Assembly (NCBI GenBank): GCA_003216295.1
Contig: QCJB01000009.1
Location: forward strand, 1-59,573
Direction: 5' to 3'
From: Prochlorococcus sp. AG-402-P16
GTDB lineage: Bacteria; Cyanobacteriota; Cyanobacteriia; PCC-6307; Cyanobiaceae
DNA: 59,573 nucleotides
This document shows, in pieces, positions 44,805 to 52,341 of the stretch; position 1 is the stretch's first letter, and each line of letters starts with the position of its first letter. A program made the translations under genes and the position numbers. Under the pieces are notes generated by a model. It saw only the letters and a program-made list of their open reading frames with translations, was not told where the DNA came from and ran no database searches.

Positions 44805-45893
44805 TTAATCAGAAAGGGTAACCCTAGCGTTATCAAGATTACTAATTGAATCAGTAACCTTCTTGAAATCAAAGCCTAAAGCACGTATTGCATGCCAAAG
44901 GTGACCTTGAATGAAGAAAAAGCCTAGGTAGTAATGAACATTTGTAAGCCAAGCTCTTGAAGTATGGCCACTAACAACTCCAGTCATATCAGCGGTATCA
45001 ATCCAATAAGGAGATATACCAAATTTAAGAGCTAGTGTTTCTCCATACCAAGCTTCTGGATAAACAGTTGTATTTGTTGCACACCAGAAAGCTGCAATAA
45101 TTGCCATCCAACCAATACCAGCAAGAGACCATGAAAGAACTGCTTCAGCAGAAAGAATGTTCTTTCCTTTGAATTCGGTGTACTCGCCTACTTGCTTGGT
45201 AGCGATATGAAATGCTCCACCTGTTATTTCAACAAATGCTAAGAATGCATGACCACCCATAACATCCTCAAGACTATCGATAGCCAAGAAATCAAACTGA
45301 TGGTTCCAAATATTGGTCAAGTTAAGGTTGTACTCAACTTGTCGGACAGCTCCTAAGGCAGGATCGTAAATACCATGAATTCGGGCCCACTCAACAAACC
45401 ATATACATGCAACACCAAAGAAAATCAAATGGTGACCAAGGATAAAAGTCTGATTATCTGGATTATCCCATTCAAGCTTGTATCTTGCTGCCTGACGATG
45501 CTCAGGACGATCATCAGCAAACAAACCTGAACTATTTTGGGTGTCTTCGCTAAAGATCAAAGAGTGCAATAAACCTGCACCCGCATATACCATTGAGCAA
45601 ATCAGATGGAATACACCGATAAAGGCTATTGATGTGCCATCAAATACTGTTCCAGTTGGATCAAATCCAATACCAATAGAAGCAAGATGTGGAATACTCA
45701 CCATACCCTGGTGTCCCATTGGAATATCTGGGTTGTATCTAGCGAGCTCCCAAAGTGTGTTTGCACCAGCTGCGAAACAAATCAATCCTGTATGAGCAAC
45801 ATGCGAGCCAATAAATCGGCTTGACTTATTTGTTACGACAGAATTACCAACCCACCACCCGTAAGTGACGTCTGGATTTCCGTAGGACTGCAT
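44805..45893 (-). CDS. pcb: Pcb antenna protein, copy 4
   Basis: 362 aa, start MQSYGNPDVTYGWWVGNS. Its N-terminal half is divergent (HQGMVSIPHLASIGIGFDPTG where others have HQSSIFLAHLASIGIG, and a loop insertion SEDTQNSSGLFADDRPEHRQ), yet the middle is nucleotide-identical to copy 3 over 230 bp (complement of 45229-45458), suggesting a converted segment. The usual GHxHH-type chlorophyll-ligand histidines of the helices are kept. It is preceded by the shared upstream element. Confidence 0.95.
   Translation of the reverse strand: MQSYGNPDVTYGWWVGNSVVTNKSSRFIGSHVAHTGLICFAAGANTLWELARYNPDIPMGHQGMVSIPHLASIGIGFDPTGTVFDGTSIAFIGVFHLICSMVYAGAGLLHSLIFSEDTQNSSGLFADDRPEHRQAARYKLEWDNPDNQTFILGHHLIFFGVACIWFVEWARIHGIYDPALGAVRQVEYNLNLTNIWNHQFDFLAIDSLEDVMGGHAFLAFVEITGGAFHIATKQVGEYTEFKGKNILSAEAVLSWSLAGIGWMAIIAAFWCATNTTVYPEAWYGETLALKFGISPYWIDTADMTGVVSGHTSRAWLTNVHYYLGFFFIQGHLWHAIRALGFDFKKVTDSISNLDNARVTLSD
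45229..45458 (-). repeat. 230-bp identical tract shared with pcb copy 3
   Basis: Identical to 43385-43614; see that entry. Confidence 0.92.
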
Positions 45894-46149: not shown

Positions 46150-47214
46150 TTAGTCATTTAGAGTAATTTGCGCTTTATCTAAGCCAGAAACAGCATTTGT
46201 AACTCTTCTAAAATCAAAGCCTAATGCACGGATTGCGTGCCATAAATGACCTTGTAGGAAGAAAAAACCAAAATAATAATGGACATTAGTTAATGCAGCT
46301 CGTGTGGTGTGACCTGCAAATGCAGTGCTATCACTTACATCTACAGTATCAATCCAATAGGGCGAAATACCAAATTTCAAAGCCAAAGGCTCTCCATACC
46401 ATGCCTCTGGATAAACAGTTGTATTGGTTGCACACCAGAAAGCTGCGACAATCGCCATCCAACCAATACCAGCCAATGAGAAAGATAAAACAGCCTCGGC
46501 AGAGAGGATACTCTTCCCTTTAAATTCTGTATATTCTCCAACCTGCTTCGTAGCGATATGGAAAGCACCACCAGTGATTTCTACAAATGCTAGGAATGCA
46601 TGCCCCCCAAGAACGTCTTCAAGATTATCGATAGCCAAGAAATCAAATTGATGATTCCAGATATTGGTCAAATTAAGGTTGTACTCAACTTGTCGAACAG
46701 CTCCTATGGCTGGGTCATAAATTCCGTGAATCCTTGCCCATTCAACAAAAGCTATACAAGCAACGCCAAAGAAAATCAGATGGTGACCAAGAATGAATGT
46801 CAAGTTATCAGGATTGTCCCATTCAAGCTTAAATTTTTGAGTAGTAGGTCCTGGCCCATCAGCTAAATCTCCATCAAAAAGAAGAGAGTGAGAAAGAGCT
46901 CCTCCTGCGTAAACAAGCGAAGCAATGATATGGACTATTGCCACGGAAGCAACATTCGCACCAGTCCAAACACCTGCATCATCAAAGCCAATTCCAATAG
47001 AGGCAAGATGAGCAAGAAAGATAGAACTTTGATGACCCATAGCTATAGCAGGATCAAATCTGGCTAGCTCCCAAAGAGTGCTAGCTCCCGCAGCAAATGA
47101 AATCAGGCCGGTATGACCGGCATGAGCTGCAATAAATTTTCCAGCGCGGTTAGTAACCCTTGAATTGCCAGCCCACCACCCGTAGGTGACATCTGGATTT
47201 CCATAGGTTTGCAT
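46150..47214 (-). CDS. pcb: Pcb antenna protein, copy 5
   Basis: 354 aa, start MQTYGNPDVTYGWWAGNS. All Pcb blocks are present, but it carries GVACIAFVEWAR (Ala in place of the otherwise constant Trp) and DPAIAMGHQSS. It is the most upstream gene of the cluster on its strand and does not have the shared upstream element of the other four, so it may be regulated separately. It is divergent from the photolyase-type cassette across 430 bases. Confidence 0.95.
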   Translation of the reverse strand: MQTYGNPDVTYGWWAGNSRVTNRAGKFIAAHAGHTGLISFAAGASTLWELARFDPAIAMGHQSSIFLAHLASIGIGFDDAGVWTGANVASVAIVHIIASLVYAGGALSHSLLFDGDLADGPGPTTQKFKLEWDNPDNLTFILGHHLIFFGVACIAFVEWARIHGIYDPAIGAVRQVEYNLNLTNIWNHQFDFLAIDNLEDVLGGHAFLAFVEITGGAFHIATKQVGEYTEFKGKSILSAEAVLSFSLAGIGWMAIVAAFWCATNTTVYPEAWYGEPLALKFGISPYWIDTVDVSDSTAFAGHTTRAALTNVHYYFGFFFLQGHLWHAIRALGFDFRRVTNAVSGLDKAQITLND

Positions 47215-47644: not shown

Positions 47645-47938
47645 ATGCACTTAACAATTTCCTGTAGAATCCAAATAAATGAAAAAAAAATAATCATACC
47701 AAAAGATTTAGATTCAGTTGATGTTGATCGCGTCATAGAAATGGCATGGGAGGACAAAACGCCTTTTGATGCGATCGATTTTCAATTCAACCTTAAAGAG
47801 AAAGAAGTTATTCAGTTAATGCGTTCAAGTTTAAAATCATCTTCTTTTAAAATGTGGAGAAAAAGAGTTACTGGTAGAAAATTAAAGCATGGGTTTCCTA
47901 AGCAAAAGACAAGGTTTAAGTCAGCAAACCAAAAGTGA
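47645..47938 (+). CDS. DUF2805 (TIGR03643 family) protein
   Basis: 97-aa basic protein. The core [19 protein letters not shown] followed by [19 protein letters not shown] and [13 protein letters not shown] is the TIGR03643/DUF2805 family, which has a helix-turn-helix-like character and often sits beside photolyase/cryptochrome-related genes. The function is not known. The start at 47645 leaves an unusual 20-residue leader; a later start is possible. The stop overlaps the GTG of the DUF2256 gene (GTGA). Confidence 0.85.
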
Positions 47939-48078
47939 AAATCAAATTGAGAAAAAACTGTCCAACTTGCCTTAGAGATTTTCAGTGGAGAAAGAAATGG
48001 GCTAAAGATTGGGAAAATATTATTTACTGCTCAGAAAGATGTAGGAGAAGAAAAAATAAAAATAATGCTAGAGATTAA
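47935..48078 (+). CDS. DUF2256 four-cysteine protein (47 aa)
   Basis: GTG-started frame overlapping the previous stop by 4 bases. It reads [18 protein letters not shown], then [20 protein letters not shown]. The CPTC (residues 9 and 12) and CSERC (32 and 36) pairs give a likely zinc-binding treble-clef-like fold, the DUF2256 signature. Genes of this family are often annotated next to photolyase-related proteins. Function unknown. Confidence 0.88.
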
Positions 48079-48150
48079 TTCGCAATTAAAAAAATTTCTA
48101 GTTATTTTGTGTAAGTCAACTTCTTAAGCATTATCTCAGGAGTAAATTTT

Positions 48151-49653
48151 TTGTCAACTAAAGTGAAAAAAATATTCCTGATTTTTCCAAATCAATTATT
48201 CAAAATAAAAAAACAATTTGCTTATATAAAGCATATTGCATTAATCCAAGATAACTTATTTTTTGGTTGTGATTCTCAATGGCAACAAAAATTTCATTGT
48301 CAAAAAATAATTTTTCATAAAGCAACAATGGACTCATACGAACAAGGACTGAAGTCTAACGGTTTCAATGTTATTTATATAAAACATAAAAGAGAGAGCA
48401 GAACTGAAGAGAATCTCAATTATCTCACAAAAAAAGGTTTTAATTATTTCATTACCTATGAGGCATTTGATTGGTCACTAGAAAAAAGAGTTAAGGATTT
48501 TTCTTTGAAAAATAATATAAAATTGGAATTAATAAAAAATGATATGTTTTTAACTAGTCAAGATATATCTGAAGAAATACTTAATCAAAAGAAAATTGAT
48601 GGAATGCAGAAATTCTATAAGAATCAAAGACTAAGCCTAAATATTCTTATTAAAAAAGATGGCTCGCCAACTGGCGGGGGATGGAGTTTTGACAAAATGA
48701 ATAGAAAAAAGCTACCAAATTCAATCAAAGTTCCAAGAATCCCAACTATAAAAACAAACATGTTCATAGATAAGGCTAAGAAAGAAGTTTCTAAAAATTA
48801 TAAGGATTATTATGGGAGCACAGAAAAATTTAATTATCCAATATCTCATGAAGATGCTGAAGAATGGTTAGATAATTTTTTAATTGAAAGACTGAATTTA
48901 TTTGGAGATTATGAAGATGCTATAAATTCGAATCATAGGACACTTTGGCATAGTATTCTTTCTCCATTAATTAATTCAGGATTACTTACTCCAAGACAAA
49001 TAATAGATAAATCATTGGAATTTTATCAATCAAATAATATTAAAATTAATTCATATGAAGGATTTATTAGACAAATTATTGGCTGGCGTGAATATATCCT
49101 ATTAATGTATAAACGGAATAGTGTAGAACTTAGAAATGGAAACTTTTGGGATTTTGAGGATAAACCAATACCATCAAGTTTTTACACTGGTCAAACAGGA
49201 ATAAGGCCTTTAGATGACTCAATAAAAAATATTTTAGAAACTGGATATGCACATCATATAGAAAGACTAATGATAGTTGGGAATTTAATGCTTCTATGCA
49301 GATTCCATCCAAATCAAGTATATAAATGGTTTATGGAATTATTTATAGATTCATATGATTGGGTTATGGTTCCAAATGTTTATGGAATGAGTCAATTTTC
49401 AGATGGAGGACAATTTACAACTAAACCGTATATTTCAGGTTCTAATTATATTCGAAAAATGTCTAACTATAAATCTGAAGATTGGTGCTTAACTTGGGAT
49501 AGTCTTTTTTGGACATTTATAAATGACTATAAAAATAAGTTCAAAGACCAATATCGATTATCTATGATTTTAAAAAATCTTGAAAAAATGGATAGTAACA
49601 AAAAAAATGAATTAAAAAAAAATGCATATGAGTTCATATCTAAACTGACTTAA
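48151..49653 (+). CDS. Deoxyribodipyrimidine photolyase-related protein (DPRP, cryptochrome/photolyase family)
   Basis: 500 aa. The N-terminal DPRP alpha/beta domain (about residues 8-225) is followed by the helical FAD-binding domain (about 255-490) with SYEGFIRQIIGWREYI, GYAHHIERLMIVGN, VPNVYGMSQFSDGG and TKPYISGSNYIRKMS. It belongs to the group containing bacterial (6-4) photolyases such as PhrB, so UV-lesion repair or a light-sensor role is expected. The CxxC plus downstream Cys that bind the [4Fe-4S] cluster in PhrB are not visible after YIRKMSNY (only one Cys, in DWCLTW). The TTG start is conventional here. Confidence 0.87.
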   Translation: MSTKVKKIFLIFPNQLFKIKKQFAYIKHIALIQDNLFFGCDSQWQQKFHCQKIIFHKATMDSYEQGLKSNGFNVIYIKHKRESRTEENLNYLTKKGFNYFITYEAFDWSLEKRVKDFSLKNNIKLELIKNDMFLTSQDISEEILNQKKIDGMQKFYKNQRLSLNILIKKDGSPTGGGWSFDKMNRKKLPNSIKVPRIPTIKTNMFIDKAKKEVSKNYKDYYGSTEKFNYPISHEDAEEWLDNFLIERLNLFGDYEDAINSNHRTLWHSILSPLINSGLLTPRQIIDKSLEFYQSNNIKINSYEGFIRQIIGWREYILLMYKRNSVELRNGNFWDFEDKPIPSSFYTGQTGIRPLDDSIKNILETGYAHHIERLMIVGNLMLLCRFHPNQVYKWFMELFIDSYDWVMVPNVYGMSQFSDGGQFTTKPYISGSNYIRKMSNYKSEDWCLTWDSLFWTFINDYKNKFKDQYRLSMILKNLEKMDSNKKNELKKNAYEFISKLT

Positions 49654-49777
49654 AGTTCGCGATAGGTAACTTAAGAAATCCATTCAATAAAAATTGTCTA
49701 GGTGTTGTTCTCTCTCCATTATTTAACTCTCAGAATAAAAATTAATTAGTATAGTATATTTTTTATCTTGAAAAAGA

Positions 49778-50233
49778 GTGAAATTAAAAATTGGAGACAA
49801 AATCCCCTCATTTTCTTTAAAAGACCAAAATGGAAATAGAAGGAGTTCAGATCAACTTAATAAACCCTTAGTATTGTTTTTTTATCCAAAGGACGATACC
49901 CCTGGTTGCACAATTGAGGCTTGCGGATTTCGTGATAAATATGATCTTTTTAAGATACTGGGCGCAGAGGTATGGGGAATAAGCAATGGCAATAGTCAAA
50001 GTCATTTGAATTTTGCTAATAAAAACAAATTACAATACCCGTTACTATGCGATTTAAATAATATCCTTAGACAGAAATTTGGCGTACCAAAGATACTTGG
50101 CTTGATTGAGGGAAGAGTAACATATATAATCAATTCAAATGGAATAATTATACACATTTTTGAAGATCTTTTAAACGGACCAGCCCATATTAAAGAAGCA
50201 ATTAGAGCATTAAAAGAAATTCAATTAAAGTAA
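49778..50233 (+). CDS. Peroxiredoxin Q / bacterioferritin comigratory protein
   Basis: 151-aa thiol peroxidase. FYPKDDTPGCTIEACGFRD gives the peroxidatic Cys44 and the resolving Cys49 of the PrxQ/BCP type, so it forms an intramolecular disulfide reduced by thioredoxin. The rest of the fold (GAEVWGISNGNSQSH, GRVTYIINSNGII) is canonical. The start is GTG. The next gene begins 4 bases downstream, so PrxQ and the FAD-domain protein are almost certainly cotranscribed. Confidence 0.92.
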   Translation: MKLKIGDKIPSFSLKDQNGNRRSSDQLNKPLVLFFYPKDDTPGCTIEACGFRDKYDLFKILGAEVWGISNGNSQSHLNFANKNKLQYPLLCDLNNILRQKFGVPKILGLIEGRVTYIINSNGIIIHIFEDLLNGPAHIKEAIRALKEIQLK

Positions 50234-50237
50234 AAAA

Positions 50238-51368
50238 GTGAATATTTTTCAAAGTGCTAATCTTAAACTTGAAGGTTTCATTAATGATAATTTATCTAAT
50301 TATCATAAATTAAGGCAATTTGATTACGGTGAAAAAGATCATTCTAATGTATCCCAGATTTCCAAGTACACAACTCATAGAATCTTATATGAATATGAGA
50401 TCATAGAGAAATTAAGATTAATTGATAAGAAGAAAAAATTTACTGATGAAATTATCTGGAGAATATATTGGAAAGGTTACCTTGAAAATTATAAATCTGT
50501 TTGGGATGAATATAAAAGTTGTAACTATAATTATTTTGATTCAGGTATCTTCGATAAAGCCATTAAAGGCTCAACAGGAATAGATTGCTTTGATACATGG
50601 GTAGAAGAGCTTAGGGAGAAAAACTATTTACATAATCATTCAAGAATGTATTTTGCAAGCATCTGGATTTTCTTATTGAGACTTCCTTGGCAAAAAGGAG
50701 CTCGTTTTTTTATGAGTCATTTAATTGATGGTGATGCCGCATCAAATACTCTTAGCTGGAGATGGGTTGCAGGTTTGCATACTAATAACAAACCTTATAT
50801 CCCTTCGAAAGAAAACATAAATAAATATACCCTTAATAGATTTAATGAAGTTAATATTAATAGTGATGAAGATACTATTCTGATTCAAAAGAGAATTCAT
50901 AAACCAAGCAAAATCAAAAGCAATAATAAAGATTGTAAAAGCAATAATTTAATAATGTTTGATAATGATATGTATATCTTAAATAGATATGAATTGTTTA
51001 ATTCGTATTCAAAAGTCTTAATAATTTTACATCACAACTTTAAAACCAGTCTTAAATTAAATGAAAAGGTAATCACCTTTAAAGAAAGTATTGTTAACGA
51101 CACAGGAAAGCTGATCCCTAACTCTGAAATAGTTAGCAACAAAGATTTAGATATTTTATTAGATGATTTTGAATGTATTGATATTTTATATCCTGGCATA
51201 GGATATAATCTTGACTTGATTAACAATTATTGTAACCAAAAAAGAATAAAGATTAATTATATATTAAGAGAAGAAGATATTAGATACTGGCATAATGCAA
51301 ATTCAGGTTTTTATAAATTTAAAAAATATTTTTATCAAGTCAATAAATTAAAGTACGAGCAAAGCTAG
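50238..51368 (+). CDS. Photolyase-type FAD-binding-domain protein with an unusual C-terminal domain
   Basis: 376 aa. The FAD-binding half of a photolyase/cryptochrome starts almost at the N-terminus: DEIIWRIYWKGYL near residues 70-82, LHNHSRMYFASIWIFLL near 131-147 and GARFFMSHLIDGDAASN near 154-170, followed by TLSWRWVAGLHTNNKPYIPS. The usual N-terminal alpha/beta antenna domain is missing. Instead, residues about 235-376 form a separate alpha/beta-looking region (NLIMFDNDMYIL, KVLIILHHNF, IDILYPGIGYNLDLIN, NYILREEDIRYWHNANSGFY). A circularly permuted or novel domain arrangement is suggested. The start is GTG. Confidence 0.78.
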   Translation: MNIFQSANLKLEGFINDNLSNYHKLRQFDYGEKDHSNVSQISKYTTHRILYEYEIIEKLRLIDKKKKFTDEIIWRIYWKGYLENYKSVWDEYKSCNYNYFDSGIFDKAIKGSTGIDCFDTWVEELREKNYLHNHSRMYFASIWIFLLRLPWQKGARFFMSHLIDGDAASNTLSWRWVAGLHTNNKPYIPSKENINKYTLNRFNEVNINSDEDTILIQKRIHKPSKIKSNNKDCKSNNLIMFDNDMYILNRYELFNSYSKVLIILHHNFKTSLKLNEKVITFKESIVNDTGKLIPNSEIVSNKDLDILLDDFECIDILYPGIGYNLDLINNYCNQKRIKINYILREEDIRYWHNANSGFYKFKKYFYQVNKLKYEQS

Positions 51369-51441
51369 ATGATGCTTATAAATACACATACCACAGATAT
51401 AAATAATAGTAATTAAAATAAATCCAAATATTATCGTGACC

Positions 51442-52341
51442 ATGTCGTTTAATTTAAATGAAATCAATGAACAAGCAAATAGATTATTTTTAATAACTGG
51501 AGCAAATAGTGGGCTTGGTTATGAGAGCACCAAGTTCCTTCTAAAGAAAGGAGCAACAGTAATTATGTGTTGTCGTGACTTAGAAAAAGGGGAAAAAGCA
51601 AAACAAAAACTTTTAAAATTTGAATACCCTGGAATTATTGAATTACTTGAACTTGACCTCTCAGATTTATTAAATGTTAAAGCAGTCGCAGGATCAATAA
51701 AGAAAAGGTTTAATCACCTAGATGTTTTAATCAATAATGCCGGGATAATGGCTCCTCCAAGAACACTTAGCAAGCAAGGTTTAGAAATACAATTTGGTGT
51801 TAATCACCTTGCTCATATGCTTCTAACATTGGAACTTTTACCAATGCTTAATGAAAAGAATAATTCAAGAGTTGTTACCGTAACTTCTGGTGTTCAATAT
51901 TTTGGAAAAATTGCTTGGGAAGATCTTCAAGGAAGATACAAATATGATAGATGGGCTGCATATGCTCAGAGCAAACTAGCAAATGTAATGTTTGGATTAG
52001 AGCTTAATTCAATACTCAAAGAAAGTAATTCTAAAACTACTTCTTTACTCGCACATCCGGGCTTTGCACGTACAAATCTACAACCTAAATCAGTAGCAGC
52101 TAATAAGTCATGGCAAGAAGAAATAGCTTATAAATTAATGGACCCTATGTTTCAGAGTGCCCAGATGGGTGCTTTGCCTCAAATAGCGGCAGCGCTATTA
52201 CCCAACGCAAAAGGAGGAGAACAATATGGGCCTCGTTACAACTTCAGAGGTTATCCGAAAATATGTAGAAACGCACCAAAAGCACTTGATCAATTCAATA
52301 GAAAAAAATTGTGGGAAGTCAGTGAAAGTTTAATTAAATAG
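51442..52341 (+). CDS. Short-chain dehydrogenase/reductase (retinol dehydrogenase-like)
   Basis: NAD(P)-dependent SDR, about 300 aa. LFLITGANSGLGYEST near the N-terminus binds the cofactor, NNAGIMAPPRT follows near 97, and YAQSKLANVM near 174 provides the catalytic Tyr-x-x-x-Lys. It is close in style to light-dependent protochlorophyllide oxidoreductase and retinol dehydrogenase relatives, but the substrate is unknown. ATG 51442 is used; a GTG two codons upstream is also possible. It is the last gene of the plus-strand cassette. Confidence 0.88.
   Translation: MSFNLNEINEQANRLFLITGANSGLGYESTKFLLKKGATVIMCCRDLEKGEKAKQKLLKFEYPGIIELLELDLSDLLNVKAVAGSIKKRFNHLDVLINNAGIMAPPRTLSKQGLEIQFGVNHLAHMLLTLELLPMLNEKNNSRVVTVTSGVQYFGKIAWEDLQGRYKYDRWAAYAQSKLANVMFGLELNSILKESNSKTTSLLAHPGFARTNLQPKSVAANKSWQEEIAYKLMDPMFQSAQMGALPQIAAALLPNAKGGEQYGPRYNFRGYPKICRNAPKALDQFNRKKLWEVSESLIK

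Follow-up and report, generated by a model that had tools for sequence, protein, structure and literature searches.

Photolyases with a reversed order of domains have been described in Prochlorococcus, Synechococcus and Cyanobium. In the parts of PMC9426592 cited throughout, Phr7 of Prochlorococcus carries a FAD domain followed by a Z-domain and is equated with the single-strand cyclobutane pyrimidine dimer (CPD) photolyases of Emmerich 2020; in Synechococcus and Cyanobium the same reversed order is found as separate (phr4/phr5) or fused (phr6) genes, and the DPRP photolyase of Prochlorococcus is named Phr2/PromaPL. The cited portions of this literature also report repair of CPDs in single-stranded DNA by NewPHL relatives, and UV protection by Synechococcus phr genes. 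Prochlorococcus MED4 likewise carries a photolyase in a small operon, the Nudix-photolyase operon (Osburne 2010, cited in the part of PMC9649867 used here), but with other genes than those considered below.

Here we describe six open reading frames (ORFs), all on the + strand, between positions 47645 and 52341 of a 59,573-nucleotide window from Prochlorococcus sp. AG-402-P16; the window is one whole contig of a 1.59-Mb draft genome that is 83% complete. They encode, in order, a DUF2805 protein, a DUF2256 protein, a DPRP photolyase, the peroxiredoxin PrxQ, an inverted photolyase and an SDR oxidoreductase. The closest named relative of the genome is Prochlorococcus sp. AG-402-K04, and the host appears to resemble low-light clade I (LLI) Prochlorococcus. 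Very probably the locus is a photorepair neighbourhood of known enzymes in such a host. A sequence-only reading had suggested a cassette joining light-driven flavin chemistry to peroxide and thiol control; the conserved adjacency in that interpretation is supported, but the idea that flavin photochemistry must be tied to control of peroxide is not.

A Phr7-type photolyase in the window

The FAD_binding_7 match of the inverted photolyase (4.4e-21) is limited to residues 69-188. Its FAD catalytic domain is N-terminal and a second domain C-terminal, and a FAD-binding-domain protein of Ruegeria matches it over its full length (95% covered, 32%). Aligned to A. nidulans, residues E71, W74, R75, N133 and M137 correspond to E283, W286, R287, N349 and M353, and D164, D166, N170 and W176 to D380, D382, N386 and W392; E283, W286, M353 and W392 are positions to which we presume a CPD role belongs. 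Fig. 1 of PMC9426592 counts R287, N349, D380, D382, N386 and W280 of A. nidulans among the flavin-binding residues, the last being replaced by F68 in the window protein. Apart from C117, the 13 tabulated positions do not vary across the 50 rows compared. With its catalytic residues conserved, the protein is a candidate for light-dependent repair of CPDs in single-stranded DNA.

Only the first of the four Fe-S cysteines (TGxxC, CxxC, CxF) is kept in the window protein, and neither CxxC nor CxF occurs in the stretch shown for 50 rows; the motifs are present in nine Synechococcus-type rows and in 10 of the 11 phr4-type rows shown (not in L195). Judged by its sequence, the window protein is not an Fe-S photolyase or Fe-S SPL of the Phr4 type, as the four-Cys set is incomplete. 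The Synechococcus and Cyanobium proteins Phr4/Phr5 and Phr6, with the SPL group (PMC9426592 and PMC9178010, in the parts cited), share the reversed order and form the next branch of the FAD-domain tree, but they keep four Fe-S cysteines and a PF00875-like domain that is either fused or free, whereas the window protein has one such cysteine and a diverged domain.

Because of its architecture, its host and the missing cysteines, we assign the window protein to Phr7. An N-terminal FAD domain, a short C-terminal domain and the lack of the Fe-S cysteine set are common to it and to Phr7/NewPHL, which is reported in LLI strains, the probable clade of the present host (cited parts of PMC9426592); no clear difference was found. 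The FAD protein belongs to a kind already described. Since that paper describes both Phr7 and the reversed order, the core of the finding is already known, and we dropped a claim that the reversed order is new. The cited parts of PMC9426592 do not mention a PrxQ/SDR/DPRP neighbourhood, and section 5 of that paper treats gene context in strain RS9916 only.

The second domain, C-terminal and of alpha/beta type (residues ~237-375), had been missed in the sequence-only reading and draws no match from the models of Pfam or NCBIfam; three attempts to prove from its sequence that the window-type domain is PF00875-like all failed. When folds were compared, the three highest VIA rows were N-terminal domains of photolyases (136-142 of 151 residues aligned), the matches being tied within 1 Z; on this match of folds the domain is a candidate for the Z-domain of the Phr7/NewPHL family. 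Synechococcus-type fusions carry a recognisable photolyase alpha/beta domain at the same position. We infer that the domain descends from an antenna domain and would pack on the FAD domain as the N-terminal antenna domain of ordinary photolyases does, probably closing the FAD pocket. Alternatively, the C-terminal half could be a Rossmann-like domain unrelated to the antenna domain and serving a new role, such as nucleotide binding, and PPAT and other non-photolyase folds are retained as rivals; given the photolyase domains in the top three rows and the domain in the same position in the fusions, we consider this unlikely.

Retention of PrxQ and decay of photolyases

PrxQ matches AhpC-TSA (1.1e-32), has a C-x4-C active site and finds a BCP homologue as its best PDB match; it shares the two cysteines of TPGCTIEAC with PrxQ/BCP peroxiredoxins but scores below the NCBIfam equivalog cut-offs. 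In a survey of 41 genomes of the genus (cut-offs E 1e-60 for the photolyase and E 1e-75 for PrxQ), 18 had the inverted photolyase (broken in G217), 25 the window-type PrxQ and 19 DPRP (with stops in G213). The tight pairing of PrxQ with the FAD protein, which does start 4 bases past the PrxQ stop as first noted, is conserved: PrxQ stands beside the photolyase on the same contig in all 18 genomes, the matched stretches being 8-32 bases apart (128 in G217). It also lies on the DPRP contig in 19 of 19 genomes, less than 1 kb from the Pfam part of DPRP, and G218 and G221 have the photolyase with no DPRP match. Comparison with other genomes shows the six-gene order again in L032, from a named Prochlorococcus, and in G056 (L196), and since it recurs there the cluster exceeds chance. 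Among 24 Prochlorococcus-group loci a related SDR is present in the stretch examined in 21, and PrxQ, DPRP and both DUFs in one (L032).

PrxQ occurs without a photolyase match in seven of the 25 genomes (G207, G208, G213, G214, G224, G228 and G233, four of them less than 90% complete). Photolyase remnants lie 3' of PrxQ in four of these seven regions (L216, L217, L218 and L219), with a complete SDR beyond them in L216, L217 and L219, and in L218 the contig ends within the SDR; DPRP is fragmented in L218 and L219 and whole-length in L216 and L217, and DUF2256 was not matched in L216. L220 has DUF2805, a short DUF2256 match, PrxQ and SDR with no photolyase match, and L221 and L222 have PrxQ alone. 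A complete SDR thus stands beside PrxQ in four of the seven regions without an intact inverted photolyase, although draft-assembly errors might imitate some of the breaks. PrxQ, and in most cases the SDR, is thus kept where the photolyases are not. Within the genus the photolyase genes break down at their original site but PrxQ survives, so that the cluster looks like a set of genes sharing a neighbourhood and not like a novel light-to-redox machine.

We propose that the DPRP and inverted photolyases would each bind FAD, with blue light driving the splitting of UV photoproducts through electron transfer from reduced FAD. PrxQ, a thiol peroxidase, and the SDR would be redox enzymes of the same neighbourhood that do not depend on the photolyases, perhaps sharing light- or stress-linked expression with them, and the cluster may be co-transcribed. 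Any link to peroxide control is so far hypothetical, and it is not an obligate one.

When PrxQ-like matches are taken at 1e-5 (three to six per genome), 15 of 29 cyanobacterial genomes have a peroxiredoxin less than 6 kb from the inverted photolyase; in 14 the distance is below 3.5 kb, where uniform placement would give 0.28. Applied to the second photolyase, with one such gene taken for each genome, the same 6-kb limit gave 0 of 28. The 15 genomes are not independent, 12 belonging to one family. The neighbouring peroxiredoxins form four groups, 28-38% identical between groups: the window type (G000 and G056), one in seven genomes, one in five genomes of a single genus, and one in G096. In the five-genome genus PrxQ lies 0.5-3.5 kb off, with three ORFs between in L177, the sole locus inspected; the G096 neighbour carries a VCPTE motif, which we take to indicate a 2-Cys-type peroxiredoxin, not PrxQ. 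We therefore speak of different paralogues, and four independent PrxQ recruitments were rejected as a reading. In a 52-row FAD-domain tree the window form (29 rows) stands apart with support of 100/99 and the cyanobacterial phr4 form (18 rows) with 90/70; the peroxiredoxin association therefore touches both. The tree program flagged long branches for L140 and for class I against the window's group. Independent gene acquisition by two Prochlorococcus groups is not claimed, as in the best tree the two come out together with weak support (52/79). The peroxiredoxin association is suggestive, but we do not read it as function because the genomes are related and PrxQ is retained without the photolyase. 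No description of a PrxQ-photolyase pair was found among the listed titles and abstract openings of open-licence literature.

In a rival reading PrxQ would clear the peroxide arising when the photoreduced FAD of the inverted photolyase is reoxidised by air, or would keep the enzyme reduced, the pair being under selection as a light/redox module. The unbroken adjacency in the genus, the excess of close peroxiredoxins at the inverted but not the second photolyase, and the use of unlike paralogues in both the phr7 and phr4 branches of the tree all favour such a module; the relatedness of the genomes, the distance and intervening ORFs in one genus (5 of the 15), the 2-Cys type in G096 and the seven genomes that keep PrxQ with the photolyase broken or gone weigh against it. 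Furthermore, PrxQ was unmatched in the stretches examined of all 56 proteobacterial loci (48 of Pelagibacteraceae, chosen for carrying the photolyase, and eight others), and the neighbours are different paralogues by lineage. We think a module of this kind improbable. Equally doubtful is the wider proposal that peroxiredoxins have more than once been brought in to work with the inverted photolyases of oxygenic phototrophs, in phr7 and phr4+phr5 forms alike; if true, a same-locus peroxiredoxin would clear the peroxide or the thiol oxidation that light-driven cycling of the flavin brings about, or keep FAD reduced.

The DPRP photolyase and its small neighbours

The (6-4)-type relationship first ascribed to the DPRP protein (Pfam match 1.7e-49) is upheld by a match to the PhrB-group structure 4dja (4.9e-68) over residues 48-499 of 500. 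The four Fe-S cysteines of the FeS-BCP subtype are absent from it, TGIRPLDD and KSEDWC standing instead; the motifs are missing as well from DPRP of L032, L196, L198 and the Pelagibacteraceae rows shown, and present in L206 and L207. By these features it is an Fe-S-less PhrB-group photolyase of the Phr2/PromaPL type, with which it has in common the DPRP domain, the structural match and the missing motifs, and from which its sequence offers no apparent difference.

Upstream, DUF2805 (1.8e-31; score 108.8 against a curated cut-off of 22.5) also matches TIGR03643 (2.6e-33; 114 against 66.55), while its matches to solved structures were at chance level alone (0.29 and above). In the cited part of PMC3597751, DUF2805 falls among translation genes in a correlation network built from metagenomes, and photolyases go unmentioned. 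The open-licence literature yielded two papers each for DUF2256 and for DUF2805/TIGR03643. The DUF2256 protein (2e-16; 60.3 against 25) has, as first described, four cysteines (9, 12, 32 and 36) and is coupled to DUF2805 by a 4-base overlap.

That these two families recur beside DPRP, given as a known pattern in the sequence-only reading, is borne out. DUF2805 is present in 27 of 146 cyanobacterial genomes and adjoins DPRP in six of the 16 that hold both (a DPRP fragment in one of the six). DUF2256 is present in 65 of the 146 and DPRP in 42; close cyanobacterial pairs of the two were seen in G000, G056 and G017 only. The trio of DUF2805, DUF2256 and DPRP is found in G017 (L198), another Prochlorococcus-like genome, and grouped on an Acinetobacter piscicola plasmid, but was not grouped on the Pseudoalteromonas, Vibrio and Nostoc plasmids inspected. 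Among the 48 Pelagibacteraceae loci (stretches examined) DUF2256 is present in 44 and DPRP in 42; DUF2256 lies less than 400 bp from DPRP in 39 and less than 300 bp from the inverted photolyase in 19, with PrxQ and DUF2805 in 0 of 48. The stretches examined of the eight other proteobacterial loci had no DUF2256, DPRP, PrxQ or DUF2805. Among the plasmid matches listed (60 of 86 for DPRP and 60 of 118 for DUF2256), 23 records have both, less than 3 kb apart in 14 and further in nine. DUF2256 is a widespread neighbour of DPRP photolyases and offers a concrete gene pair to test; it and DUF2805 may be small proteins that assist or regulate DPRP. On a Vibrio pelagius plasmid (L211 2089-5228), TIGR03643 (DUF2805) lies ~1.4 kb from a gene annotated as deoxyribodipyrimidine photo-lyase.

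It is also improbable that the genes are neighbours by descent alone, with no common regulation or function: partners do vary by lineage (AarF/UbiB kinase or FAD/NAD(P) oxidoreductase genes on four alphaproteobacterial plasmids), DUF2256-DPRP is on the opposite strand in Pelagibacteraceae and the SDR is divergent in other Prochlorococcus, but the DUF2256-DPRP linkage across proteobacterial plasmids, Pelagibacteraceae and Prochlorococcus, and the repeated peroxiredoxin placement, are above chance.

Two-gene forms and remaining features of the locus

In 14 Synechococcus-type loci the alpha/beta domain lies 3' of the FAD ORF, fused to it in six and separate in eight. Its profile matches class I N-terminal domains (best 9.4e-07; hhalign 95.6%, E 1.1e-08), and three of its sequences match PF00875 at 3.7e-05, 0.003 and 0.007, all below the curated cut-off. 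Strong FAD-ORF matches (<=5.1e-69) occur in 29 of the 146 cyanobacterial genomes and strong phr5-type matches (<=1.1e-42) in 25, all 25 among those 29; the remaining four are G000, G056 and G017, each with its own diverged domain, and G086. The other 117 genomes have no strong alpha/beta match and two weak ones (1.8e-4 and 3.1e-4, in 574- and 482-aa frames). The two genes are adjacent or less than 1 kb apart in 14 of the 25 genomes, 1.7-1.9 kb apart in two, and far apart or on another contig in nine: on the same contig but 477 kb apart in G118, 540 kb in G143, 2.4 Mb in G106 and 4.9 Mb in G145, and on separate contigs in G104, G126, G155, G179 and G198. PMC9426592, in the part cited, considers a programmed frameshift for phr4/phr5 and leaves open whether they make one protein or two, and a heterodimer was suggested earlier (PMC3441193, in the part cited). 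Since phr5 occurs exclusively with phr4 but in nine of 25 genomes at a distance that no frameshift could bridge, our data bring evolutionary evidence to this question and favour two polypeptides.

In L189 (8649-10638), L200 (4974-6820) and L202 (3503-5368) the phr5-type gene adjoins an ORF that we presume to be TldD-like, and in L113 (145-1335) and L118 (16-1206) the phr4-type gene has, upstream and on the opposite strand, an ORF resembling RibD of riboflavin synthesis.

The ORF list, Pfam and NCBIfam agree with the six same-strand ORFs, their order and families as first read (Table 1).

Table 1. Features of the photorepair neighbourhood, in window coordinates
Feature	Position	Strand	Basis and remarks
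DUF2805/TIGR03643 small protein, 97 aa	47645-47938	+	Pfam and NCBIfam
DUF2256 protein, 47 aa, GTG start	47935-48078	+	Pfam; 4-base overlap with DUF2805
DPRP photolyase, 500 aa, TTG start	48151-49653	+	Pfam; PhrB/(6-4) group, Phr2/PromaPL type
PrxQ/BCP peroxiredoxin, 151 aa, GTG start	49778-50233	+	AhpC-TSA; TPGCTIEAC motif
Inverted-topology photolyase, Phr7/NewPHL type, 376 aa, GTG start	50238-51368	+	FAD_binding_7
FAD/catalytic domain of the inverted photolyase, residues 1-218	50238-50891	+	
C-terminal alpha/beta domain of the inverted photolyase, residues 237-375	50946-51362	+	Antenna-like by fold and position
SDR oxidoreductase, PRK06197 group, 301 aa	51436-52341	+	adh_short

The SDR matches adh_short at 2.7e-27 (Pfam) and PRK06197 at 6e-87 (NCBIfam). 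AGGAG stands 5' of the DPRP start; 124 bases separate DPRP from PrxQ and 67 the FAD protein from the SDR. A promoter and terminator scan yielded no more than shuffled expectation.

On alphaproteobacterial plasmids an AarF/ABC1/UbiB kinase gene lies beside or near the inverted photolyase (L208 5956-8558, L214 3635-6176, L209 5962-10157, L215 4962-9155), and in the two Asticcacaulis records among them the photolyase overlaps a gene for an oxidoreductase dependent on FAD or NAD(P). Upstream in the window, on the - strand, are two adjacent ORFs of 362 and 354 aa (44805-45893 and 46150-47214), which we take to be antenna proteins of the Pcb/IsiA kind.
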